A model generated the notes under the pieces. That model was given only the letters and a program-made list of their open reading frames with translations, did not search any database and was not told the DNA's origin. Of a DNA stretch of 36,853 nucleotides, positions 307 through 36,853 are shown piece by piece. The stretch is from IMG/VR virus record IMGVR_UViG_3300007735_000685, positions 1-36,853 of that record; one strand, written 5' to 3'. The translations under genes and the position numbers were made by a program. This DNA is from a virus. How positions within the stretch are numbered: position 1 is the first letter of the stretch; each line of letters begins with the position of its first letter.

Positions 307-765
307 TCAAAGGCTGTCCGCGATTTCCTTGGCCCAACTGACGATTTCACTAGTGGGCGCAGTTGCGACCCATTTCCAATGATCCGCACCTTCCCGCCAA
401 TCGTCCGACATGATGATTCTCGCATACTTGCGAAGTTCTGACGATCCCTGCACGCGACGATTCGCCGCAGCATAATCATCCGCAAACCGCTCCTTCCGGC
501 CCTTGCCGAAGTAGAAGCGATCCTCGACGGCGAATCGGGCGGGAGTGCCGGGGCTGGAGGCACGGATTTTCCATGCGGCAGTTCTCTGCGGCACCATCCG
601 CCCACGCGAAATGGGGTCAGGAAGTTCCACCATGTAATAATCGCCGTCGATCATCTTCTTGACAATCACGCCTTGTACCAATTTGTTGCCCTGCAACACC
701 GTGACAGATTGACCGGGACGAAACTCCGTCTGTTCCGACATCTTGTCCTTCGCGCCGTCAGCCAT
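307..765 (-). CDS. Head-module protein with RPGQPERF-type motifs (152 aa)
   Basis: The family is unknown. Residues 15-68 look like a small beta-barrel (SVTVLQGNKLVQGVIVKKM, then YYMVELPDP), similar in feel to an SH3/KOW fold. Next come SPGTPARF at 71-78 and EDRFYFGKGRKERF at 81-94, which closely match the start of the preceding gene product (EDKFYFGKPGQPERF). The C-terminal 55 residues are helical and Trp-rich. It starts 8 bases inside the upstream gene and ends two bases before the protease start. Its place between MuF and the protease suggests an accessory head or internal virion protein, but no function can be assigned. Confidence 0.7.
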   Translation of the reverse strand: MADGAKDKMSEQTEFRPGQSVTVLQGNKLVQGVIVKKMIDGDYYMVELPDPISRGRMVPQRTAAWKIRASSPGTPARFAVEDRFYFGKGRKERFADDYAAANRRVQGSSELRKYARIIMSDDWREGADHWKWVATAPTSEIVSWAKEIADSL

Positions 766-1702
766 TCTTCACCTCCACATTCCAGTAGCGTCCAGTCGTG
801 GCGACAGGACTAGTTGCGCTGTAGCCCTTGCCCGCCACGCGGCGAGCAAAGTTTCCGGCCACATCGCCGTCCTCAAACGAAATCACGAGCGTATCGCTGC
901 CAGCCTGCACGGCGCGCCATCCGCCCTCGGGCATCGCTTTCTCGGAAAGCAACTTGCCGAGAATGGGCGACTTGCTGGCCTCGGCGAACGATCCGCGCTC
1001 AAGGCTTGATGCGTCAAACTTGTCGGGCTGGCCGGGGCGGGAAGATTCGTTCCGCATCGTGATTCCAACCAAGAGAGTCGGCCCCATAGACAGCGTGTTG
1101 TAACTGCTTCCACTCGCCATCAGCAATTCGCCCTTTGAGTTCACTTTGAACAATGGCCGACCCGACGCTTCCCATTTCTTCCAAGTTTTCGGCGTGATCT
1201 TGGTGATCTTGGTCATGGTAGACACATAGACCGTCTGACCGGACGAGAGAGCCGAGGTGATCTTCTGCAAAATACTCGGCCCAATCGGTGTGCCACCTTC
1301 CGCGAACCGCTCGGGCTGGCCGGGGCGGGAGAAGGGAGCCTTGCCACTTCGCGCCCGCTCCTCCATTTTGTCCCACTTGTCGATGAATGCGCGAACTTCG
1401 GCAACCGCCTTCTTTGCTTTTGCTTGAACGCGCGAGTCTTTGTGCTTCAGAACTCCACGGGCTTCGTCAAGGAAATTGAGAAGGCGATTGGAATACGCAT
1501 TCGTATCAAAAATCCATCCGGTATCACGCGGATTCTTCTTGACTGCCTTTTGCATGACTTGCGTCATTTGCTTCATGTCTTTTTGAATCTCGGAAATCGC
1601 AAGATCAAGATCAGAAGCCAAAATGTTGACAGGACGGTAACTGTATCCAAACCGCTCGGGCTGACCGGGCTTTCCGAAATAGAACTTGTCTTCTGTGTTC
1701 AT
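758..1702 (-). CDS. Modular head-associated protein with three PGQP[ED][RK]F repeats (314 aa)
   Basis: Not a family I recognise. The protein looks like three blocks, each opened by the same octapeptide: KPGQPERF at 11-18, RPGQPERF at 126-133 and RPGQPDKF at 222-229. Block 1 (19-125) is helical and Lys-rich; block 2 (134-221) is mixed beta with Thr/Lys runs; block 3 (230-314) is a compact alpha/beta segment (TLVISFEDGDVAGNFARRVAGK). Two of the repeats share 20 identical bases (1023-1042 and 1311-1330). The start ATG overlaps the MuF stop (ATGA). A structural or internal head protein is likely from context; the motif could be a processing or docking site. Confidence 0.7.
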   Translation of the reverse strand: MNTEDKFYFGKPGQPERFGYSYRPVNILASDLDLAISEIQKDMKQMTQVMQKAVKKNPRDTGWIFDTNAYSNRLLNFLDEARGVLKHKDSRVQAKAKKAVAEVRAFIDKWDKMEERARSGKAPFSRPGQPERFAEGGTPIGPSILQKITSALSSGQTVYVSTMTKITKITPKTWKKWEASGRPLFKVNSKGELLMASGSSYNTLSMGPTLLVGITMRNESSRPGQPDKFDASSLERGSFAEASKSPILGKLLSEKAMPEGGWRAVQAGSDTLVISFEDGDVAGNFARRVAGKGYSATSPVATTGRYWNVEVKNG

Positions 1703-2757
1703 CGTTTAAATCCGGGATCGGGGTAATCGCCTCTGTCGATGATGCGTTGCCGTGCTGCGTTATACCGCGCCAGCGCGGCACGGTCTAGAGTTCCGTCCTT
1801 GCTCACAAGCCGCATCGCTCGCGCCTCGTCAAAGGTCACGGGCATGAGTGCGCCGCGACAGTTGAAGCCGTTCGGCGGCACTAGCCCCTGCCGCTTGAAG
1901 TCCGCAGCCGTGGCTATGTAGCCGTCCATTTGCCAATGCGATCCGGGGTTCCGGCTCTTGCCCTTCGGACGGTAAACGCCACCCGGCGCGCCTCGCGTTC
2001 GGCTGTCGTGGATTTCGACTAGGCGCAGCAGCGGAGCCCACTTGGCGACGGCTGGCTTGTCCATCGCGTCGGCGGTCGCATCGTTGTAAGCCGAAGCCAT
2101 GTTGGTGCGGTAGACCGTTTCCAGCCTCGCACCCGTCGTGCCGATGATGCCTTCGACCTGTGCGCGCCGAATGAACGCCGACAGGCTCCCCGTCTTGAGT
2201 CCCTTCGGCGTGTCCGCAGTCTCAATCGCGCGGGCGATCAAGTCGCGCAGCCGGGTTGCCTGCTTCTCGGTAGCACCCTTGACGCGGAACGAGCCGTCGA
2301 TGGTCGCGCGAAGGGCTTCCAGCCGCTTGGACAGGTCACGAATGGCCGTTCGGCTCTCGGATTTCGCAATGCGCTCCGACAGCCTGCGCATCTGTCGCCG
2401 GATGCGCTGCACCTCCAGCCAAGAACGAGGGATGCGCCGCCGAAAGGCTTGCACGGCCTCCCAAAACACGCCCGGAGTAAATCCGGCGTTCCAATCATCG
2501 TTCGCAAAACGATCCGGCTTCTCGTCCGGCCATTCCTCGGCTTCCCATTCGGCTCCCTGCGCCTTCGCAGCCGCGTGGGCGCGAGCCACGCCCGCAAGAG
2601 CCGACAAGGTTAGCACCTGTCCTAGCGCGTTCCCGTACCGCTCCCAAGCCTCCTCGGCTTCCTCCGGTTCCTCGCGCACTTGTGCGGCTAGGGCCGCGCG
2701 ATACCAGCGGGCGACTTCCCGCAGGCCGCGCCGATAGATGCGGTCGAACTCGGTCAC
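1699..2757 (-). CDS. MuF-like head morphogenesis protein
   Basis: 352 residues, GTG start overlapping the portal stop (GTGA). The C-terminal third carries MuF/SPP1-gp7 family signatures: TVYRTNMASAYNDA near 219-232 and VPPNGFNCRGAL near 295-306, with two conserved His in between (EIHDSRT, GSHWQMDG). MuF proteins are minor head components bound next to the portal and are needed for head assembly or DNA ejection. The N-terminal half is helical and charged and contains EKPDRFAND at 79-87, a version of the motif repeated in neighbouring head proteins. Order TerS-TerL-portal-MuF is standard. Confidence 0.92.
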   Translation of the reverse strand: MTEFDRIYRRGLREVARWYRAALAAQVREEPEEAEEAWERYGNALGQVLTLSALAGVARAHAAAKAQGAEWEAEEWPDEKPDRFANDDWNAGFTPGVFWEAVQAFRRRIPRSWLEVQRIRRQMRRLSERIAKSESRTAIRDLSKRLEALRATIDGSFRVKGATEKQATRLRDLIARAIETADTPKGLKTGSLSAFIRRAQVEGIIGTTGARLETVYRTNMASAYNDATADAMDKPAVAKWAPLLRLVEIHDSRTRGAPGGVYRPKGKSRNPGSHWQMDGYIATAADFKRQGLVPPNGFNCRGALMPVTFDEARAMRLVSKDGTLDRAALARYNAARQRIIDRGDYPDPGFKR

Positions 2758-5459
2758 TTGCGGCGACTTGCTGCGGTCACAATCGCTCCGATGGCTTCAA
2801 GCAAGGCATCGTTCTCTTCGATAGTTGCCTCGGACTTCCGGCCAATCGCGCTGTACTTTTCAAACTGCTTGAGGAGCATTGCATACGCAGAACGCATCTT
2901 CTGTTCAGCGATGGAGAACATCGTTTTTCGACCATGCTTGGAATTTTCCGCCTTGTATGGCGGAAGTCCCAATTTGGCAGCATCGCGCTTGTTCAGTTCC
3001 TTGCCAAACTTCTTGCGGAATTCAAGATGCAACTGCCGCCGCCTTTCTCTTACTTCTTCGAGTTTCTTCGTCGTTTCCGCCACGCGCTCATTCGCGGCTT
3101 TCACACGAGCATCCGCTTCCGCGATCAATGGCGCAAAGTGATCGTCCAATGCCTTTCGCGCTGCGGCGTGTCGAGTTTCCATCTCTGCGATGATTTCTTT
3201 CGACCGCTCGCTGATGTTCTGTTGCGCCGCCGCTTGAACGGTCTGCTTCCATTGATCGCTGGACATCGGCTTGTTGAGGTTGGCCAACTTTCCCTTTAGA
3301 TCATCGATCTTTGCGCGGATGCGCTTGACCTGTCGTTCGCTCTTGCGAACCTCATCCTTTACTTCCTCGTCCGTCCCTTCGATCCGGTCGCGCCGCCGCT
3401 CCTTCTTCGGCGCGGCTGGCTTGCGGCCACCGTCCCCTTTCGATTCCTCGCCACCGCCCCCGCCTTCGCCCGCCCCGCAAGTGTTTCCGGGCTGAAACCC
3501 ATCCGGCCCAATGCCACAGTTCGCGCCGTCGAACCGAGCCTTCGCGCCCCGCTTGGAGTGCAGTTCTCCGCGCCGCTTCATCGACAGCGCGATAGCCACG
3601 GCCTGATCCTGCGGGTAGCCCTCGCCGCGCAGCAGCGCGATCTTGCGACTCACCGCATCGTCCTCGGCGGCGTTCTCGTCCTTGCCCTCGGCGCGGTCAA
3701 GTTCCTTGTCCTTGCGCTTGGCCCACGCCTTGCCGGGGTCGCCGCCCCAAAGCAGCCAAGCGATGTAGCCCGCCGAATCCTCGCCCCATCCCTCGCCCTG
3801 CTTGTCCACCTCGTGCCGTGCGAAATACGAGTGCATTCTTCTTACGGTGGACGGCGAGAGCGTCTTGCGGTTCGACAGGTCGCGCGCGCGAGCCACGCCA
3901 ACTTCCGTGCCGCCCCTGCCGTGCTTCTTCCGCAGTTCCAGTCCGCGACGGGCCGCGCTCGCCATCTCCTCGGTTGGCGTAAGGTCAACATCCGAAAGGG
4001 CGAATCTGTCCTTCTGAAACGGCTGGCTTTCCTCCGGCGTTCCATCGTCCTCCGGCCCCATCGGTGGGAGGTCGAGCGGGCCGGGGCCACCCATGCCGCC
4101 CTCGGCGGGAGCCTGAAGAACCGCTTCGTCATCCTCCGGCTCGGCAAGGCCAAGCACCTTGCGCGCCTCGCGCTCGCTCACGCGGCCACCCAACTTCGTG
4201 AAGGATTCGATGGCCTTCATGTACTCGTCCGGGTTCGGCTTGCTCACGCTGAACGAGAACGCGGGCGGAACGGCATCATCTCCGAAGTTCATGCGGAACA
4301 ACGGCGTGACGATTTCGCGCGTGATCGTTTCGGCCAGCGCATTCGCCACATAGGTCAACTGACGGTTGAGGGTCTGCGCGTGTTGGTCGCCGATGCTGGA
4401 ACCAAGCCCGCTCGTGACGGCCTGCGAAGTTCCCGTCTGACCAAGAATCACTTCCTTGATGTTCTCGGTAAGATACTCAACCATCTTAGCAAACGCTTCG
4501 GCATTGCCGCCGTTCGGCTCAAGAATCTTGATGTCGTAGCCCGCGTCCGTGCCGTCGCCGTTCTTCGGAATCAGAACCGAGACATCGCCAAGCAGGTTCT
4601 GCATGGCGGTTTCCATGTCGGCCTTCGCAGCATCGTTGCCAACCGGGTAGTTGCCGACCCGGATGCCCATGCTATAACGCTCAATGTACGTCGCCCAATT
4701 CTGTAGCGCGGCCTGCTTCAGCGACCAGTAGTACCACACGAGGTCTCGCATACCGCGACCGAGGTAGGCATTCTCGGCCTCGTATGGATCGTCAAAGTCC
4801 ACACCCTGCGGCTGGAATGTGTGAAGCGCAATCGTCGCGCGCTGTTCATCGTCAAGCGGCAGAACGCGGCTATCCCAACCAATCACCGTTCCGTTGATCT
4901 TGTCGGTGTCCGGCTGCGCGCCTCCGATGGTCTGCGTGTAGTAGCGCGGGCCGACCTTCAGGCCAAGTTGCCCGAGTTCGGTGATTGTCACGCTGTCGCC
5001 GTGAATCGGAAGCCAATCGCGGACATAGACCGTTTCGCCCTGCTTGCCGAACACCATGTTCACCGCGCTCCGGCCGTACCAAAGCGCATCCAGCAGATGC
5101 CGCATGAGGTCGGTAAAGCGCGGGATGTTCTTTAGCAGTTTCTCAACGAACGCAGCCTGCTCGGCGGCTTCTTCGTCCTTCTGAAGATCGGCGGGAACCT
5201 GAACGGCCCACTCGCTGCAAGCGACCGACAGTTGCAGCATGGTAAGCGGCCCCATGATGTCGGGGTCGTAACGCATCTGCCGCTGAAGGTTTCGATCCTT
5301 GCGAAACGCAAGCGACCCTTGCCGAAGAATCTTGTTGACCGAGAGGTAGTAAGACCGCTGAAGTTCAACGGGCGTGACCAACGCCTGAAAGATTGGCGCG
5401 GTGCGAATCTGATCGGCTGCTTGGGTTTGGTCGGCTGCGTTCTGCGGCATGAGGCTCAT
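2754..5459 (-). CDS. Portal protein with long C-terminal extension (901 aa)
   Basis: The portal forms the dodecameric DNA gate at the head vertex. I chose ATG 5459 because it overlaps the TerL stop (ATGA); an in-frame ATG at 5483 would lie deeper in TerL. Residues 1 to about 450 form a Mu gp29/DUF935-like core (cues: DPDIMGPLTML, EVILGQTGTSQAVTSGLGS, VSEREARKVLGL). The usual portal length is about 430-550, so some 440 residues are extra. They hold KDRFALSD (483-490), a conserved phage module around HGRGGTEVGVARARDL and IAWLLWGGDPGKAWA (513-582), EGYPQDQAVAIAL (613-625), CGIGPDGFQPGNTC (648-661), a poly-Gly hinge and a long charged coiled coil (about 690-901). The function of the extension is unknown. 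Confidence 0.9.
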   Translation of the reverse strand: MSLMPQNAADQTQAADQIRTAPIFQALVTPVELQRSYYLSVNKILRQGSLAFRKDRNLQRQMRYDPDIMGPLTMLQLSVACSEWAVQVPADLQKDEEAAEQAAFVEKLLKNIPRFTDLMRHLLDALWYGRSAVNMVFGKQGETVYVRDWLPIHGDSVTITELGQLGLKVGPRYYTQTIGGAQPDTDKINGTVIGWDSRVLPLDDEQRATIALHTFQPQGVDFDDPYEAENAYLGRGMRDLVWYYWSLKQAALQNWATYIERYSMGIRVGNYPVGNDAAKADMETAMQNLLGDVSVLIPKNGDGTDAGYDIKILEPNGGNAEAFAKMVEYLTENIKEVILGQTGTSQAVTSGLGSSIGDQHAQTLNRQLTYVANALAETITREIVTPLFRMNFGDDAVPPAFSFSVSKPNPDEYMKAIESFTKLGGRVSEREARKVLGLAEPEDDEAVLQAPAEGGMGGPGPLDLPPMGPEDDGTPEESQPFQKDRFALSDVDLTPTEEMASAARRGLELRKKHGRGGTEVGVARARDLSNRKTLSPSTVRRMHSYFARHEVDKQGEGWGEDSAGYIAWLLWGGDPGKAWAKRKDKELDRAEGKDENAAEDDAVSRKIALLRGEGYPQDQAVAIALSMKRRGELHSKRGAKARFDGANCGIGPDGFQPGNTCGAGEGGGGGEESKGDGGRKPAAPKKERRRDRIEGTDEEVKDEVRKSERQVKRIRAKIDDLKGKLANLNKPMSSDQWKQTVQAAAQQNISERSKEIIAEMETRHAAARKALDDHFAPLIAEADARVKAANERVAETTKKLEEVRERRRQLHLEFRKKFGKELNKRDAAKLGLPPYKAENSKHGRKTMFSIAEQKMRSAYAMLLKQFEKYSAIGRKSEATIEENDALLEAIGAIVTAASRRK

Positions 5460-6886
5460 GGATTGTTCCCGTACAGCCTCCACAGTTTCGGGCGCGTATT
5501 CGCCACCGTGGCGGGCTTTGATTGTGGATCATAACGCCGCGTTCTGCCATGCTCTAGCAAATCGCACACGACATCTACCGTATCGTCATGCTCTCCAGCA
5601 GGGAAGGAAACCATCTCGTCGCGGATTGGCTCTTGGGTCGATTCGAGCCTGCCATCCGCTCTGCATCGCAGCCGGAGCCGCCCCTGCTCGACCATCGGTT
5701 GCGCCTCGCTAGCCCGCGTGATCTTGTCCTTCGTGCGAGTCAGACGGCGAACCGGGATGCGGGTTGCCTGCTGGAGTTGCTGGCAGAGGCCCGCTTGGGG
5801 GCCGTTGCCTTCGGCGAGGATCAGAGCCGCCCCTAGACGGTCGCAGGCATCCGTAGCGCGGCGCACGAATTCGGGAAATGTCGCCTGCACCCGAAGGCAC
5901 TCCAGCACCCAAACATTCGCGTCACGGTCAAGCAGCGCGATTACGCAAACGCTGTAGTCGCCCTTTTCGCCGCGCTTCTCGGTGAATGCCCAATCAATCG
6001 CCGCGACAATCGTGCCGTTGTTGCGCGCACTCTCGGGCGGGTCAACCGGGTAGTAGCCCGCCTCAAGCCATTCAGGCCGGAACACAAGCGATTCATCGGA
6101 AACGGGTACGAGTTCGTAGGCGCGCGCGTAGCCGAGCGGCCCCATTTCGCGCCGCTGCGCTGCCAGCACCTCCGGCGTAAACACCTCCGGCCACGGGCTT
6201 TCAAAGCCTCGGCACGGCTTCCAAAACAGGTTGGAATCCTCTTCGCCCGCGCGTTTCCATTCGGCGGTCAGGTCATCGGTGTGGTACGGCGTGAACAGCC
6301 TCCAAGTACGCGGCCTGCCCGCGCTGAAATCGCGCATGGGTAGCCAGTTGTTTCGCCACGCCTCCTTCACCTTCTCTCGCTCGGCGGGGATCAGCACGGA
6401 GTTTCGCAGGTCGCAAACATCGTCCCCGCACAGGAGATCGACGCGACCGCCAGCGCGGCCAAAAATGTTCGCGGCCTGCATCGTCGCATCCCGGTGCATA
6501 GACGCGGATTTCACCACGATTTCGTTGCTGCCATCCGTGGACGGGTCGGGCTTGAGCATCTTGATTTCGGGAAAGACCATCCCGTAGACCTCGCTCCGCA
6601 TGATCTGCACCACCATGCGGATTTGCTCTTGCGCCTTCGCCACCGTCTGACCAATGTGCTTGATGCGAATGGATGGGTTCCGGCCAATCTCCCACGCCTG
6701 CCGAATGCCTAGTTGGACGCTCTTCCCGTGTCCGCGTGGCATTCCTACGGCTGCGTCGCCGTACTTCGATAGATGCGCCTGCATCGCCGTGTGCAGCCCA
6801 GATTGGTTGAACCCAAGCAGTTCGGCAAAGATGTCGGGGCATTCGCGCGCCGCCGCGATGACCGCGCTCGTGTCCGGGTCAACCAT
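5456..6886 (-). CDS. terL: Terminase large subunit
   Basis: 476 residues, the DNA-packaging motor with ATPase and nuclease domains. Visible motifs: Walker A GMPRGHGKS (48-56), Walker B RVDLLCGDDV (148-157), coupling-type motif LFTPYHTDD (197-205), and an RNase-H-like nuclease with D298 (AAIDWAF), E359 (LAEGNG) and a C-terminal HDDTVDVV (433-440) supplying further acidic metal ligands. Length is normal. It starts 8 bases within the TerS gene and its stop overlaps the portal start, so the three packaging genes are translationally coupled. The packaging mode (cos or headful) cannot be read from these motifs alone. Confidence 0.95.
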   Translation of the reverse strand: MVDPDTSAVIAAARECPDIFAELLGFNQSGLHTAMQAHLSKYGDAAVGMPRGHGKSVQLGIRQAWEIGRNPSIRIKHIGQTVAKAQEQIRMVVQIMRSEVYGMVFPEIKMLKPDPSTDGSNEIVVKSASMHRDATMQAANIFGRAGGRVDLLCGDDVCDLRNSVLIPAEREKVKEAWRNNWLPMRDFSAGRPRTWRLFTPYHTDDLTAEWKRAGEEDSNLFWKPCRGFESPWPEVFTPEVLAAQRREMGPLGYARAYELVPVSDESLVFRPEWLEAGYYPVDPPESARNNGTIVAAIDWAFTEKRGEKGDYSVCVIALLDRDANVWVLECLRVQATFPEFVRRATDACDRLGAALILAEGNGPQAGLCQQLQQATRIPVRRLTRTKDKITRASEAQPMVEQGRLRLRCRADGRLESTQEPIRDEMVSFPAGEHDDTVDVVCDLLEHGRTRRYDPQSKPATVANTRPKLWRLYGNNP

Positions 6887-13106: not shown

Positions 13107-13901
13107 TTACTCCGTGCAATCGCAAGGCATTGTCGAATCACCATACTCATCAAATAGCCTTCCTTGTACCGTGACTTGCTGAAGCATGGTTTTGTAGTTG
13201 GGGCGATCTTTGCGGAATGTCCCACCTATTGCAGACTCTTGATTGATCCACCACGCCGCCCGAGTCGGATCATGCTCTAAAACTCGTTCAGTAGCGGCCC
13301 TGCTCTTCAAAAAACAAAGATCGCAATTTCCAAACGCTTGATCTCCATTCGGCAACATCAGGTCGAAGGGCGCAACTTTCCAATAGTCCATGACTGTTTC
13401 GCGGGTTGCTCTCGCATCAGCCAAAGGCATTTCAATGTCTCTGCTGGCATCTGCTCGCAACTTTGAAACTCGTCGCATCTCGTCATATCGCAATCCAATA
13501 ACCGTGGTGAAAACCTCATACCTCTGCTTCATCCACGCATTCATCGGCTTCACCTTCAAGTCGCTGGTGCAAAATCGCGCAACAGGATTTGGAAGGTAAT
13601 TTCGCTTTGCAATCAGCGACGCAAATGGTTCGCCATTTTTGCTGGAGGTGTGGTAGTTGACTTCAATGAATGGCGCATCTGCCCGATATTCAATCCATGT
13701 GATCGAACACCACCGTGTCTCAATCTCATGCACGAAGTCGAGCGTGGCTGGATGCTCGCGCCCGGTGTTCGCAAACAGGACATAACCGCCTTCAGGCATC
13801 GCACCGCCCCATGCGTCGAGGATCATTCGCAGCATATAGCCGCTGGTGCGACCGCCGCTGAAGGACACATAGAACGGTGGTTCGATCTTGTACGGGTTCA
13901 T
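13107..13901 (-). CDS. PP-loop ATPase / PAPS reductase-like protein (264 aa)
   Basis: The N-terminus has the PP-loop SFSGGRTSGYML (13-24), the ATP-pyrophosphatase signature shared by PAPS reductases, DndC-type sulfur-transfer enzymes and tRNA thiolases. A second family-like stretch is ARFCTSDLKVKPM near 108-120, followed by a cysteine pair in FGNCDLCFLKS and a terminal CDCTE. These Cys could bind a metal cluster. Phage members are usually annotated phosphoadenosine phosphosulfate reductase family, with no proven role; DNA sulfur modification, nucleoside modification or sulfur metabolism are possible. The ATG overlaps the initiator stop. The local DNA is less GC-rich than its flanks. Confidence 0.82.
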   Translation of the reverse strand: MNPYKIEPPFYVSFSGGRTSGYMLRMILDAWGGAMPEGGYVLFANTGREHPATLDFVHEIETRWCSITWIEYRADAPFIEVNYHTSSKNGEPFASLIAKRNYLPNPVARFCTSDLKVKPMNAWMKQRYEVFTTVIGLRYDEMRRVSKLRADASRDIEMPLADARATRETVMDYWKVAPFDLMLPNGDQAFGNCDLCFLKSRAATERVLEHDPTRAAWWINQESAIGGTFRKDRPNYKTMLQQVTVQGRLFDEYGDSTMPCDCTE

Positions 13902-14686
13902 GGTGTCTCCACAGGGTCAAGGTAACGCCCCTGCCCGAGCCAAGTGGCAGGGTGCGGGATGTAGGCTGCTTCGGTCTTTGCGTACTGCTTTGCCATCGCG
14001 GCGATGCGCTCGCGCATCCACTCCACCGCGTCGGCCATATCGTCAAGTTCCCATTCGGTCGCGTAGTCGCGGATTGCCCGCTCCAGCAGCGCGACGGCTT
14101 TCCGCTTGCCGACCTTGCGCGGGAACAACGCCCATAGCCGCTCCAGCGCGCCGGATGGCATCGGCTGCTTCCTCTTGATCGGTTCAATGACAGGGGAAAC
14201 AGGCTCGCCGCCCTCGGCGGTGAGCGTATTTCTCTTTGTCTCTGTCTCTGATAGTGATTGTGTATGTGTATGTGTTTGTGTATGGCATGATCCAAGCATT
14301 GCATGGGCATTGCTTGGAGCATTGCTTGAAGCATTCCACCGAGCAGCAGCAGCCCGCTGCGCCTTGTCTGCGTTGCGCCTGCCCTGCTCCCGCATCTCGT
14401 TCCGCTCGCGCTCCTGCCGTTGGTTCCGGCGGCGACCGTCCGCAGTCACGGGGAACTTGTCCTCCAGCAGATGCCACGCTGGCCGGATGTCCGGGTCGAG
14501 CCGGAACAGCCGCTCGGGTTCGGCTGGCAGCCCGTCGCCTTCCCACGCCGCCCACAGAAGGATCATGTACGCGCCGCGCTCGCTTGCGCTCCATCCAAGC
14601 GTCGAGGCCATGAAATCCGTTCCCCAAAACGGCATCCACGGCGCACGGCCTCTTGCCGTTCCGTTTGTGCCATTCGTTACACTCAC
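13898..14686 (-). CDS. DUF1376/YdaU-like replication initiator (262 aa)
   Basis: I chose the GTG at 14686 because AGGAGG lies six bases before it; an ATG at 14719 has no ribosome site. Residues about 15-100 match the DUF1376 (YdaU) domain of phage replication proteins (WMPFWGTDF, LGWSASERGAYMILLWAAW). The C-terminal half (about 175-262) has LWALFPRKVGKRKAV and YIPHPATWLGQGRY, the usual end of such initiators or helicase loaders. The linker between (about 101-175) is low-complexity and is encoded by repeat DNA resembling an origin. The likely role is binding the phage origin and recruiting the host helicase, analogous to lambda O. Confidence 0.82.
   Translation of the reverse strand: MSVTNGTNGTARGRAPWMPFWGTDFMASTLGWSASERGAYMILLWAAWEGDGLPAEPERLFRLDPDIRPAWHLLEDKFPVTADGRRRNQRQERERNEMREQGRRNADKAQRAAAARWNASSNAPSNAHAMLGSCHTQTHTHTQSLSETETKRNTLTAEGGEPVSPVIEPIKRKQPMPSGALERLWALFPRKVGKRKAVALLERAIRDYATEWELDDMADAVEWMRERIAAMAKQYAKTEAAYIPHPATWLGQGRYLDPVETP
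14224..14337. other. Candidate replication origin inside the initiator gene
   Basis: Four heptamers GCATTGC/GCATTGC/GCATTGC/GCATTCC start at 14296, 14307, 14319 and 14331, spaced 11-12 bases, about one helical turn. An inverted repeat CCAAGCA (14292-14298)/TGCTTGG (14311-14317) overlaps them. Next to these, 14224-14287 is AT-richer and strongly strand-biased (a plus-strand run of T, G and C with few A, including TGTGTATG repeats), like the easily melted segment next to lambda O iterons. It encodes a low-complexity linker, so protein constraint is weak. Confidence 0.6.
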
Positions 14687-14729
14687 GCAAAGCCTCCTGC
14701 GCCCTATTCGGCGCGGCATGGGTTAGAAG

Positions 14730-14765
14730 CGGCTCGCCTCACGCAAGGCGGGCCGTTTCGCTTTT
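14730..14765 (+). terminator. Rho-independent-like terminator, antisense to the leftward unit
   Basis: A 10-bp stem with one G-T pair (14730-14739/14746-14755, CGGCTCGCCT with AGGCGGGCCG) and a 6-base loop is followed on the plus strand by TTTCGCTTTT. It lies in the only real gap between the methyltransferase and the initiator. In the plus direction there is no gene to end, so it may stop antisense transcripts. On the minus strand the same hairpin would sit in the leader before the initiator. Confidence 0.55.
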
Positions 14766-14767
14766 CA

Positions 14768-15664
14768 TCATCCCACCGATTGACTGGATTGCAAGTCTTG
14801 CGTCCGTCCTGCCATGAGATCCTCGACCATTTGAATTCGCCGTCCTACCCACCGGGCTACCGGAACGCACCATGAGTTGCCGAGTGCCTTGTAACGCTTT
14901 GAATCCGTTGCACTCGGGATGTCTGTGTAGCCATCCGCAAATCCCATCAATCGCTCAATTTCCACAGGCATGAGCCATCGTGGATATCCGCGTGCGTCGA
15001 GTCGGAGCATTCCTTCTTCTGCTGCCATGTTGCAGCGAGCGACTGAACCGCGCGATGTAACGCATCCGACAATTTCATGCCCCTGCGGAGGTTTCGGCGT
15101 TCCATGCCCGCACAGGCTTTTGGAGTCATGTAGAACCGCTGCGGGATGTCGCCAGTCTCCAACACCGTTTCGATTGAAGCCCACGAGAAAGATTCGTCGG
15201 CGGGATTGAGGGACTCCGAAGTACCGAGCGTCCAGCACTCGGTAGCACCACCCATAGCCGATGTCGCCCAAGTGCCGGAGGAAGGTTCCCAAGTCCCGTC
15301 CTCCGTTGGAGTGCAAGGCTCCACACACATTTTCCCACACCAGCCAGCGAGGGCGTAGCCATTGAGCAAGTCGCAGATACTCAAAGGCCAGTTGACCACG
15401 AGGATCGGAAAATCCTTTTCGTTTGCCGACAGTAGAGAACGCTTGGCAGGGTGTTCCGCCTGCCAAAAGAGCGACGGTTCCGGGTTCAATGTCCCATCGT
15501 TCATGTTCTAACAGGCTCCCGTAGTTCTTGACTGATGGGTAGTGGTGTTCAAGCAACTTGCAGCAAAATGGGTCAATTTCAGATACACCGACACATTCCC
15601 AACCAAGCGGTTTCCACGCAACGGTCGCTGCTTCGATGCCGCTGCAAACGCTCAAGTACCTCAA
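14768..15664 (-). CDS. DNA (cytosine-5) methyltransferase (298 aa)
   Basis: Methylates cytosine C5 in DNA, most likely to protect the phage genome from host restriction. Motif I is CSGIEAATVAW (7-17), motif IV GGTPCQAFS with the nucleophile C73, motif VI ENV (111-113), motif VIII QSRRR (153-157), and motifs IX-X include LMGFADGYT and LGNSWCVPVA (261-270). The target-recognition segment between about 165 and 235 is short, so the specificity cannot be predicted. Translation starts at TTG 15664, overlapping the upstream stop (TTGA). No restriction partner is next to it, which favours a solitary protective methylase. Confidence 0.93.
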   Translation of the reverse strand: MRYLSVCSGIEAATVAWKPLGWECVGVSEIDPFCCKLLEHHYPSVKNYGSLLEHERWDIEPGTVALLAGGTPCQAFSTVGKRKGFSDPRGQLAFEYLRLAQWLRPRWLVWENVCGALHSNGGRDLGTFLRHLGDIGYGWCYRVLDARYFGVPQSRRRIFLVGFNRNGVGDWRHPAAVLHDSKSLCGHGTPKPPQGHEIVGCVTSRGSVARCNMAAEEGMLRLDARGYPRWLMPVEIERLMGFADGYTDIPSATDSKRYKALGNSWCVPVARWVGRRIQMVEDLMAGRTQDLQSSQSVG

Positions 15665-16948: not shown

Positions 16949-17008
16949 ATGCCGCATAACCGATAGCCGGGGCGGGACTTGCGTCAACCGCCCCGGCCTT
17001 CCGGGGGT

Positions 17009-17905
17009 TCAGAACGGGATTCCGTCCTCGGGCGGCACGGTCGCCGCCTCGGGCTGCGGGGATTCTACCGCCGTTCGCAGGCCGTAGAGCGTCCAGCCGT
17101 ACTGCCCCTCCTGAATGAACGCTTCGACCTTCTCGCCACCCATCGCGTCCTGTGCGGCCTGCATCAAGTTCTGATCGAAGCACGAAGCCCATTGTTCCGC
17201 GTTGTCGGCCGTGCCGAACAGGATCGGCCACCGCTGGCCCCCCTTCGCGGTCGGCTTGCCCTGCCCGATCTTGCGGACGGTCAACCCCTGTCGCCAAGTG
17301 CAGTCTTTGGCTGGCCGGGATGCCATGACCTCGTTATACGCGCTAGGAGCCGCCGGGGCTCGTTCCGGGGCCGGGGTCGGGGTCGGAGCCGCCTTCGGGG
17401 CCGGGGCGGCCTGTGGGGCATCCTGCGCGGTCTGACGCGGCGCGGGGGCCGGACGGGCCGGGGCCGGAGCAGACTTGCGCGGCTCGTAGGTGCGGTCATC
17501 GCGGCGATCCATCTCGGCTTCGTCCTCGCGCGGCACAAGCAGCAGGTCGCGCAGGTAGTACCCGAGGCTGGAAGTCAACGCGCCAGCCAACGCCTTGTCG
17601 AGCGGTCGCCCCTTCTCCGGGATCGCGGGCCAAGTCACCTCGTCGCTCGCCGACTCGCCGCTGGCCGCGTGGGTGAGGATGAAGGTGCTAGTGACAACGC
17701 CGCCCTCCGGCGAGCCATCGAACTTCCACCCGGCCCGGCGCACAGCCAGCCCCGCGCCGTGCAGCACTTCGCGGCAAGCGGAAATCATGCCTTCCGCGCT
17801 GACATACGAGTAGTGATGGAACGAATTCTTCGCGTCCTTCGTCACGCTTGGAAGGGCGCGCTGCGCCGCCAGCAGGGCGGCCGAAAGTGTCTTGGTGTCG
17901 CTCAT
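17009..17905 (-). CDS. erf: ERF-family ssDNA-annealing recombinase with SSB-like C-terminal domain (298 aa)
   Basis: Anneals complementary single strands in phage recombination. Start ATG 17905 (MSDTKTLSAALLAAQRAL); longer in-frame starts run into the gene before. Residues about 1-140 form the ERF domain (cues: FHHYSYVSAEGMISACREVL, AGALTSSLGYYLRDLLLVP). Residues 141-188 are an Ala/Pro linker. Residues 189-280 form a beta-rich domain with OB-fold character (GLTVRKIGQGK, RWPILFGTAD, KVEAFIQEGQYGWTLYGL). The last residues, PPEDGIPF, resemble the acidic tip of bacterial SSB (DDDIPF), which recruits repair proteins. No separate SSB gene is recognisable in the genome. Confidence 0.85.
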   Translation of the reverse strand: MSDTKTLSAALLAAQRALPSVTKDAKNSFHHYSYVSAEGMISACREVLHGAGLAVRRAGWKFDGSPEGGVVTSTFILTHAASGESASDEVTWPAIPEKGRPLDKALAGALTSSLGYYLRDLLLVPREDEAEMDRRDDRTYEPRKSAPAPARPAPAPRQTAQDAPQAAPAPKAAPTPTPAPERAPAAPSAYNEVMASRPAKDCTWRQGLTVRKIGQGKPTAKGGQRWPILFGTADNAEQWASCFDQNLMQAAQDAMGGEKVEAFIQEGQYGWTLYGLRTAVESPQPEAATVPPEDGIPF

Positions 17906-17941
17906 GGGTGTCTCGTTTCTCCTGCGAAGGTGCAGGCCGTC

Positions 17942-36437: not shown

Positions 36438-36853
36438 TGGCTTTCCTTTGGTTCCTGACGGGATGAAGGTGTTCAGACCTCCGCCCACGCCAATTTCAGC
36501 AAACTTCTGCTTGGAGTCAAGAGAAACGCGCACGACTCCAAGTGGACGCTCAAAGACCGCCTTTGAGCCGTACTTCCCAAATCGTGTGTCGGGGAGCGGT
36601 CGCCGGGGCGTATCACGGCCCAGCAAGGCTACCTCCGACAGGTGATTGTCCTTCCAAATCTCCGCGCTGCGGCGAGGATAGGCGTTGCTGGCAAGCAGCG
36701 AATCGAACGCCTCCTTCGGCATCTCAACATCGCCCACGACATAGGCAACGCCGTTGCGCTCCTCGTAGCGAACGCTGGTGATGTCGCCGACCGCCTCGGG
36801 CCGCGTGGGCTTGCCGTCCTTCTCGTGTTCGATGACGAGTTTCGGACGCGAGC
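35772..36853 (-). CDS. Prohead protease-scaffold, C-terminal part (Mu gpI-like)
   Basis: Continuation of the gene that starts at 304; the joined product is 419 residues. Residues 1 to about 170 form the Mu-I-like serine protease with H69 and S122. Residues 178-191 (AEIGVGGGLNTFIP) nearly copy the N-terminus of the major capsid protein. From 199 on the chain is a highly charged, Ala/Glu/Asp-rich helical scaffold with a coiled-coil-like LERQLRLERF segment, ending in KYTGNKA. The layout matches head proteases whose C-terminus is the scaffold and is removed on maturation. The gene is followed by the decoration protein and the major capsid protein. An in-frame ATG with a strong ribosome site at 36437 probably also makes free scaffold. 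Confidence 0.85.
   Translation of the reverse strand, partial: SRPKLVIEHEKDGKPTRPEAVGDITSVRYEERNGVAYVVGDVEMPKEAFDSLLASNAYPRRSAEIWKDNHLSEVALLGRDTPRRPLPDTRFGKYGSKAVFERPLGVVRVSLDSKQKFAEIGVGGGLNTFIPSGTKGKPMSAKMKKKMEQHDEEAKKALAAAATECAADEDEDKMAEEADAAAMAAEGEEAEMAYAAEDEDKFEDGVHVDIGSHQGEAEEEDEEEEMEAAYGGKAKMSKGDKSTKALFARVQELERQLRLERFGKEVDAMIRDGYRCGKFRNSMVEELSDATNPGAKIAFWKATMARLPLNVPTVAQHTVTDEAHESMDVKAATARAVHEAAGDLTKFKSLFAKYTGNKA
36728..36853. repeat. Terminal direct repeat, right copy (circular junction)
   Basis: Exact second copy of 1-126. It lies inside the N-terminal half of the prohead protease gene. With one copy removed the genome unit is 36,727 bases. Confidence 0.95.

Follow-up and report, generated by a model that had tools for sequence, protein, structure and literature searches.

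A short linker repeated through neighbouring phage head-cluster proteins points to a reused joint between interchangeable domain cassettes

Introduction

Why does one short peptide recur within and between neighbouring proteins of a phage head gene cluster? The question is raised by the IMG/VR virus record IMGVR_UViG_3300007735_000685, the whole of which (36,853 bases) is the window analysed here; an exact 126-bp terminal repeat marks it as a circularly closed assembly. The first-pass annotation had noted an octapeptide of the form [RKS]PG[QT]P[EAD][RK]F in consecutive head proteins and proposed a shared signal, either a cleavage site for the prohead protease or a docking tag that draws cargo into the head. 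Comparative sequence evidence instead points to a first role for the motif as a reused joint between interchangeable domain cassettes. The genes on which the argument turns are these:

5456-6886, minus strand: terminase large subunit (Terminase_6C)
2754..5483, minus strand: Mu-type portal with a C-terminal extension of about 400 aa (PF06074, phrog_2859, phrog_2423)
1699..2757, minus strand: MuF-like minor head protein, neighbour of gene A (PF04233)
758..1702, minus strand: gene A, 314 aa, with an N-terminal tag, two cassettes and a constant C-terminal domain (open reading frame, 46 relatives compared, AlphaFold2)
307..765, minus strand: gene B, 152 aa (open reading frame, 36 relatives, AlphaFold2)
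spanning both ends of the circular record, minus strand: protease-scaffold gene
17009..17908, minus strand: ERF-family single-strand annealing recombinase (PF04404, E 2.6e-10)

The minus-strand head cluster also includes the capsid gene; the protease and capsid genes were called by position and sequence resemblance, without a significant profile match.

Results

The octapeptide is confined to genes A and B

The 314-residue product of gene A carries the octapeptide three times, as KPGQPERF (1672-1649), RPGQPERF (1327-1304) and RPGQPDKF (1039-1016), and the 152-residue product of gene B carries SPGTPARF (555-532) followed by VEDRFYFGKGRKERF (528-484), all on the minus strand and all as first described. 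No other frame of the genome contains it, and 20,000 residue shuffles of the 314-residue protein produced none. Scored against the linker consensus, no 30-mer of the DNA other than the four sites in A and B reached 21/30 or more; Markov-randomised windows attain 19-21 by chance. A perfect 12-mer at 16966-16977, which lies in or beside a hairpin after the ERF gene, was taken as chance.

The weaker cousins of the motif that had been listed in other head proteins are mostly near chance. MuF, portal, protease part and major capsid protein (MCP) together contain the string [EDA][RK]F 5 times (2.3 expected), and the other genes contain it 9 times (4.9 expected). Only part of that list stood up to comparison with relatives, namely two sites in the portal extension:

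4013-4002, minus strand: portal KDRF site, conserved among relatives as PFxKD[RK]FALSD, also QFGKDRF
3542-3531, minus strand: portal RGAKARF site (KARF), with counterparts in relatives

The remainder were rejected as members of the system: EDKFEDG of the scaffold is not conserved, KPDRFA of MuF is at most partly so, and the MCP lacks the motif.

AlphaFold2 models of genes A and B place the octapeptides in, or at the edge of, stretches of pLDDT below 50 between folded domains, in agreement with the earlier statement that they lie in linkers and not in core folds. Gene A is predicted to form three folded regions (about residues 24-120, 141-197 and 236-314), with the helices of its first cassette spanning residues 29-118. 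Gene B, by comparison and modelling, has a small beta-barrel N-terminal cassette, the linker, an internal tag and a helical C-terminal cassette. The motif thus occupies inter-domain linkers of neighbouring head-cluster proteins, and to this extent the idea of a shared signal holds. The two genes divide as follows, all on the minus strand:

1673..1702: gene A N-terminal tag, MNTEDKFYFG (EDRFYFGK element, by alignment)
1649..1672: gene A linker 1, KPGQPERF
1328..1648: gene A cassette 1, family m27, helical, about 107 aa, common to L003
1304..1330: gene A linker 2, SRPGQPERF (TCC CGC CCC GGC CAG CCC GAG CGG TTC)
1040..1303: gene A cassette 2, family m12, about 88 aa, also present in L004 and L023, there in other contexts
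1016..1042: gene A linker 3, SRPGQPDKF
761..1015: gene A constant C-terminal domain, family m0, 85 aa
532..555: gene B linker, SPGTPARF (RPGTPARF in L006 and L007)
484..528: gene B internal tag VEDRFYFGKGRKERF, nearly invariant in the gene B alignment
310..483: gene B C-terminal cassette, family m5, six members in four contexts

Linkers separate cassettes that recur in new combinations

A protein scan of IMG/VR recovered related loci, 46 with gene A and 40 with gene B, all of the array genomes being metagenomic assemblies. Gene A proteins begin with the tag (M..EDRFYFGK), in which E4, D5, F7, Y8 and F9 are invariant across 39 aligned proteins, continue with 0-5 segments and in most cases end in the same 85-residue domain, the m0 family being found in 38 unique proteins. 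SRPGQPERF or a close variant separates nearly all of the segments. At the extremes, L040 has five segments and L032 has an empty array, its tag fused straight to the C-terminal domain through a single degenerate joint. Gene B is built in the same way, with an SRPG[EAK]K(DMMA/DTMA/ATFK) linker before the VEDRFYFGKGRKERF tag and SRPGQPERF after it; the nearly invariant EDRFYFGK element stands at the start of gene A and also inside gene B. Cassettes of both genes measure about 55-170 aa. After a 29-residue cassette, CWxGYEPVGTKxKDGRTVPNCVP, comes a third kind of short joint (KNEKPERF, KNAAGGEEKF and the like). This cassette is present in 15 proteins, and the number of proteins that match several functionally uncharacterised phage families is also 15.

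When 77 unique proteins were divided at their linkers, the resulting 226 segments grouped into 75 families, of which 46 have at least two members; the linker patterns were written by hand, and the family counts hinge on these patterns and on the BLAST thresholds. The same cassettes recur in other orders, beside other neighbours and in other genes and genomes. Almost all of the multi-member families (42/46) are found in at least two different contexts, seven (m3, m4, m6, m21, m23, m25 and m30) are common to genes A and B, and 40 gene A proteins display 38 distinct architectures. The number of families was still climbing as genomes were added, with 74 observed besides the C-terminal domain and a Chao1 estimate of about 96.

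The cassettes have few recognisable relatives. None of 39 A and 37 B proteins gave a convincing Pfam domain (the matches were marginal, with E of 0.001 or above), PADLOC found no match among gene A proteins, and fold searches with both proteins in Foldseek returned nothing significant. The cultured phage and plasmid records searched contained no arrays, and the only matches were homologues of a few cassettes that stand alone: m15 is found in phages of Rhizobium, Agrobacterium, Sinorhizobium and Pseudomonas, m33 in Variovorax phage V45v66 and, weakly, m12 in gp08 of Roseobacter phage CRP-902. With MuF as probe, no relative appeared in 84,980 species genomes; the C-terminal domain as probe found one 6.5-kb contig (L122) filed under a Nitrospiraceae MAG, possibly a misbinned virus.

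Exchange breakpoints fall at the joint

We compared DNA identity around cassettes that have changed partners. Where the same cassette has a different left partner (390 pairs), identity is 0.25 upstream, as for random sequence, and 0.7-1.0 within the joint. On the right side (43 pairs), the cassette itself is about 0.6 identical, most of the joint 0.9-1.0 and the DNA beyond 0.2-0.3. Direct pairwise comparisons show that a cassette is gained or lost in frame, as one linker plus one cassette. L010 carries 405 bp (135 codons) more than L043 between flanks that are 96-97% identical; the extra DNA amounts to 321 bp in L024 over L034, 201 bp in L016 over L036 and 429 bp in L013 over the empty array of L032. 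All of these lengths are multiples of three, and the ends lie in or beside linker sequence. Both the identity profiles and these clean indels therefore place exchange breakpoints in shared homologous DNA, as in homology-driven mosaicism. Turnover is rapid even between close relatives: in 82 pairs of genomes whose protease DNA, measured on a 420-bp stretch of the gene, is 95% or more identical, an average of 10% of the families are shared.

Distant lineages carry related arrays

Relaxed DNA patterns and a scan with the C-terminal domain reached further lineages, in which arrays are longer and linkers are related to those of the window lineage. In L159-L163 the linker is SRTGxKAKFA and the tag VEDKAYF, and about 45 contigs have SRPGAKAK[MF] linkers, 2-9 per protein. 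In the latter contigs the array proteins start with MSKQDIEKRLGFAAQGVKA or M-DMSNTRKEIAARLG, and other arrays lie inside portal-type extensions (L173, L174, L210, L214 and L221). The portal extension of the window has the two domains that flank the array in the distant phages, here with no array between them. RPGQPERF pattern matches outside the lineage (L082, L086, L091, L092, L095, L111 and L112) look like chance or non-homologous open reading frames.

Taken together, the window lineage and the distant arrays gave 498 segments in 190 families by a coarse cutting. Window-lineage A/B arrays and distant arrays have 35 families in common, and in the distant arrays 47 of the 50 multi-member families occur in at least two contexts.

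Linker DNA varies less than expected from codon usage

The joint has a consensus DNA of about 27-30 bp, TTCTCC CGC CCC GGC CAG CCC GAG CGG TTy, encoding FSRPGQPERF or a variant, and is more uniform than the flanking cassette DNA; linker 2 of gene A matches the consensus linker DNA at 30/30 positions. Among 64 linkers with different flanks, the two prolines are CCC in 64/64 and 62/64 cases, while proline codons in other genes of the same contigs are CCC in 25.5% and CCG in 50.6%. At P/G/S/R/Q/E codons of the C-terminal domain synonymous heterozygosity is 0.205; in the linker it is 0.091. By this test the DNA-level excess is suggestive and not overwhelming, because 5.9% of random C-domain column sets reach equally low values. 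The distant arrays are a stronger control. There, SRPG is encoded by TCC/CGC/CCC/GGC in 90-97% of 119 linkers, as against 19, 41, 24 and 45% for the same four codons in the cassettes of those proteins; the distant set was found by a DNA pattern fixing Ser as TCN, and codons were then counted on every array linker. Within the linker, variation falls mostly at amino-acid-changing positions (Q, E, R) and not at synonymous ones, the last codon excepted. In one lineage, where the protein reads SRTG instead of SRPG, a single base sets the DNA core apart (TCCCGCACCGGC). Uniformity of this kind would be produced by recent shared descent through exchange or by selection for homology, and is not expected from a protease site alone.

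An annealing recombinase accompanies most arrays

The window's ERF protein scores 40.9 bits against PF04404, above the curated cut-off of 25. ERF was above cut-off in 13 of 18 window-lineage contigs and 12 of 16 distant ones (25/34), and one more has RecT. ERF, RecT and Rad52 were not detected in L161, L162, L217 and L047, contigs which may be incomplete or use another protein; this argues against a strict requirement for ERF. The link between ERF and shuffling is an association only, making ERF a candidate agent. The minimal pairing segment is 23-27 bp for Red-beta and 31-34 bp for RecA, and the Erf of phage D3 is as active as Red-beta (De Paepe et al., 2014; PMC3945230). A joint of 27-30 bp matches the Red-beta segment and falls below that of RecA.

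Discussion

We propose that the cassette arrays are shuffled by short-homology annealing at in-frame joint DNA, a reading to which we assign a probability of roughly 0.8. Cassettes would pass between co-infecting or resident phage genomes at the short homology that the joint supplies, with the phage-encoded ERF annealing recombinase as the most likely agent. Since the joint keeps the reading frame and is disordered, each exchange would yield an intact protein of tag, cassettes and C-terminal domain. A weaker part of the proposal concerns the products. As late head-cluster proteins with a common tag, A and B may be packaged in the head or assembled together with it, a role as virion cargo that we infer only from gene position, and their cassettes may be rapidly changing effectors or binding domains that act on the host or on host defences. 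A more ambitious version, to which we give somewhat less than an even chance, is a dedicated domain-exchange system, maintained across a large group of environmental phages, in which an open pool of small cassettes (about 100-190 or more), a standard in-frame joint and an annealing recombinase rebuild head-cluster, probably virion-carried, proteins, and in which the rebuilding continues even between close relatives.

The strongest competitor, which we nevertheless consider unlikely, is that a Mu gpI-like prohead protease cuts the linkers and frees single domains inside the head, which would make polyproteins of A, B and the portal extension. The sites are predicted to lie in disordered stretches between folded domains, an F or M ending after a mostly basic residue recurs in the linkers of three lineages and before a portal extension domain, and the protease gene (Mu gpI-like) adjoins the arrays in relatives as well as in the window. 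There is also precedent for head proteases that cleave a number of head proteins at recurring motifs (PMC10052503). However, the residues after SRPG vary with linker class (QPERF, EKDMMA, AKATFK, AKAK[FM]A) while the DNA core is kept, which is unlike one strict protease site despite the recurring F/M ending. That linker variation is mostly amino-acid-changing also weighs against cleavage, as do the absence of the motif from the MCP and its lack of conservation in the scaffold. Cleavage by the prohead protease may be a second role of the linker, at the protein level.

That the motif is instead a docking or capsid-targeting tag drawing cargo to the head is quite improbable. Near-invariance at the start of A and inside B would suit such a tag, but it belongs to EDRFYFGK, which is separate from the linker and is the better docking candidate. 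Numbers of cassettes and joints vary widely, from none to five cassettes and down to the single degenerate joint of L032, and the linker sequence is lineage-specific.

We think it very unlikely that the joint has no role as DNA, the arrays having arisen by illegitimate recombination and selection having then favoured a flexible linker that is tolerated. A protein-level constraint on the linker would likewise hold exchanges in frame, yet it predicts neither near-invariant synonymous codons nor an end of identity at the joint. Interchangeable units with a common short joint do look like cassette arrays, which could suggest that they were created by site-specific or integron-like recombination or by an in-frame mobile element. 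We give this explanation little credence, since 13 contigs had no match to the Phage_integrase (PF00589) or Resolvase profiles and the joints vary between lineages and accept substitutions, which is compatible with homology-driven exchange. Finally, chimeric contigs built from short identical repeats, conceivable where joints are repeats and every genome is a metagenome assembly, can be set aside almost entirely: repeats of about 27 bp are shorter than the usual final assembly k-mers, cassettes common to different contexts are often diverged (about 60% DNA identity), and the same array is seen in more than one data set (L004/L005, L010/L012, L016/L017, L019/L020 and L040/L042).

Shuffling of cassettes at a common joint, our preferred reading, resembles several known systems and differs from each. 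Polyvalent proteins, which are defined by a catalogue of 131 largely enzymatic domains (Iyer et al., 2017; PMC5512222), likewise combine many domains per polypeptide in variable arrangements. Those of phages are predicted to be packaged and injected, MuF proteins belong to the same theme, and that paper (PMC5512222) never uses the word 'linker'. The A/B cassettes, unlike polyvalent domains, are small and lack annotation, and a single repeated linker, conserved at the DNA level, connects them. The catalogued domains (metallopeptidase, ART, helicase, ParB-like and others) were not found in A or B by convincing Pfam matches, and we therefore do not class these as polyvalent proteins.

Recent domain shuffling between phage proteins has been described as domain mosaicism (Smug et al., 2023; PMC10684548), in the sections available to us mainly for receptor-binding proteins, endolysins, neck passage structures and replication proteins, with the mechanism left open. 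The shuffling of the arrays is an instance of such mosaicism, differing in its common joint, of which those sections report no equivalent. Short conserved boundary sequences between phage gene modules have also been proposed as sites of exchange by homologous recombination (PMC3029335); they lie between genes and are not found at most boundaries, whereas the present joints are repeated within a single reading frame, with several to a gene, and form tandem arrays. Annealing recombinases of phages, Erf of D3 among them, recombine short or diverged homologies (PMC3945230), and the mosaicism described for these Rad52-like enzymes is general, with no dedicated joint of the kind seen here.

The openly accessible literature yielded no described system with this motif, as the first-pass annotation had supposed, and no account of such a shuffled-cassette joint system. 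The arrays would offer a direct test of whether short-homology annealing drives phage mosaicism, and they would provide a catalogue of many unannotated small head-cluster domains that are plausible candidates for head-delivered, host-acting factors. If the proposal is correct, domain cassette shuffling with a standard joint would be a routine phage route to protein diversity. Integron cassettes are exchangeable units that stand in tandem and have a short site in common, a description that also fits the A/B arrays; these differ in having no integrase among the contigs searched and in that their units are in-frame domains and not genes. A dedicated exchange system, if real, would be the viral counterpart of the integron or of exon shuffling, applied to injected anti-host domains.

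Record ends and gene content

The window record is a circularly closed assembly, as follows from an exact terminal repeat of 126 bp, and the protease-scaffold gene runs across both of its ends. Genes for a PAPS-reductase-like protein and a C5 cytosine methylase lie near each other within 13107-15664.

1-126 and 36728-36853, copies of the terminal repeat
13107-13901, PAPS-reductase-like protein
14768-15664, C5 cytosine methylase

The sole host hint for this phage group is one of its own contigs, of 6.5 kb (L122, OMJK01000020.1), placed in a Nitrospiraceae MAG, possibly through a binning error.

Portal extensions and cassette arrays

A long cassette array is located inside the portal-type extension of more distant phages (L173, L174, L210, L214 and L221), where it is flanked by two domains. 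The same two domains are adjacent in the window portal, around residues 590-610 (about 3655-3715), which suggests that the window may contain an empty docking site. At the L032 locus, where the gene A array is empty, a 382-aa protein bearing the portal-extension motif FDGANCGIxxGFQPGNTC occupies the place of gene B directly after gene A, as if the portal-extension domain had been relocated there.

Cassette families

The 29-residue m1 cassette (CWxGYEPVGTKxKDGRTVPNCVP) is found in 15 gene A proteins (e.g. L006, L019 and L040), has a joint type of its own, and is apparently the portion of these proteins behind matches to several PHROG families of unknown function. The m15 cassette, of approximately 100 aa, is present in gene B of L006, L018 and L037. 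Many phages with no relation to this group, including phages of Rhizobium, Agrobacterium, Sinorhizobium and Pseudomonas, encode it as a small protein on its own.
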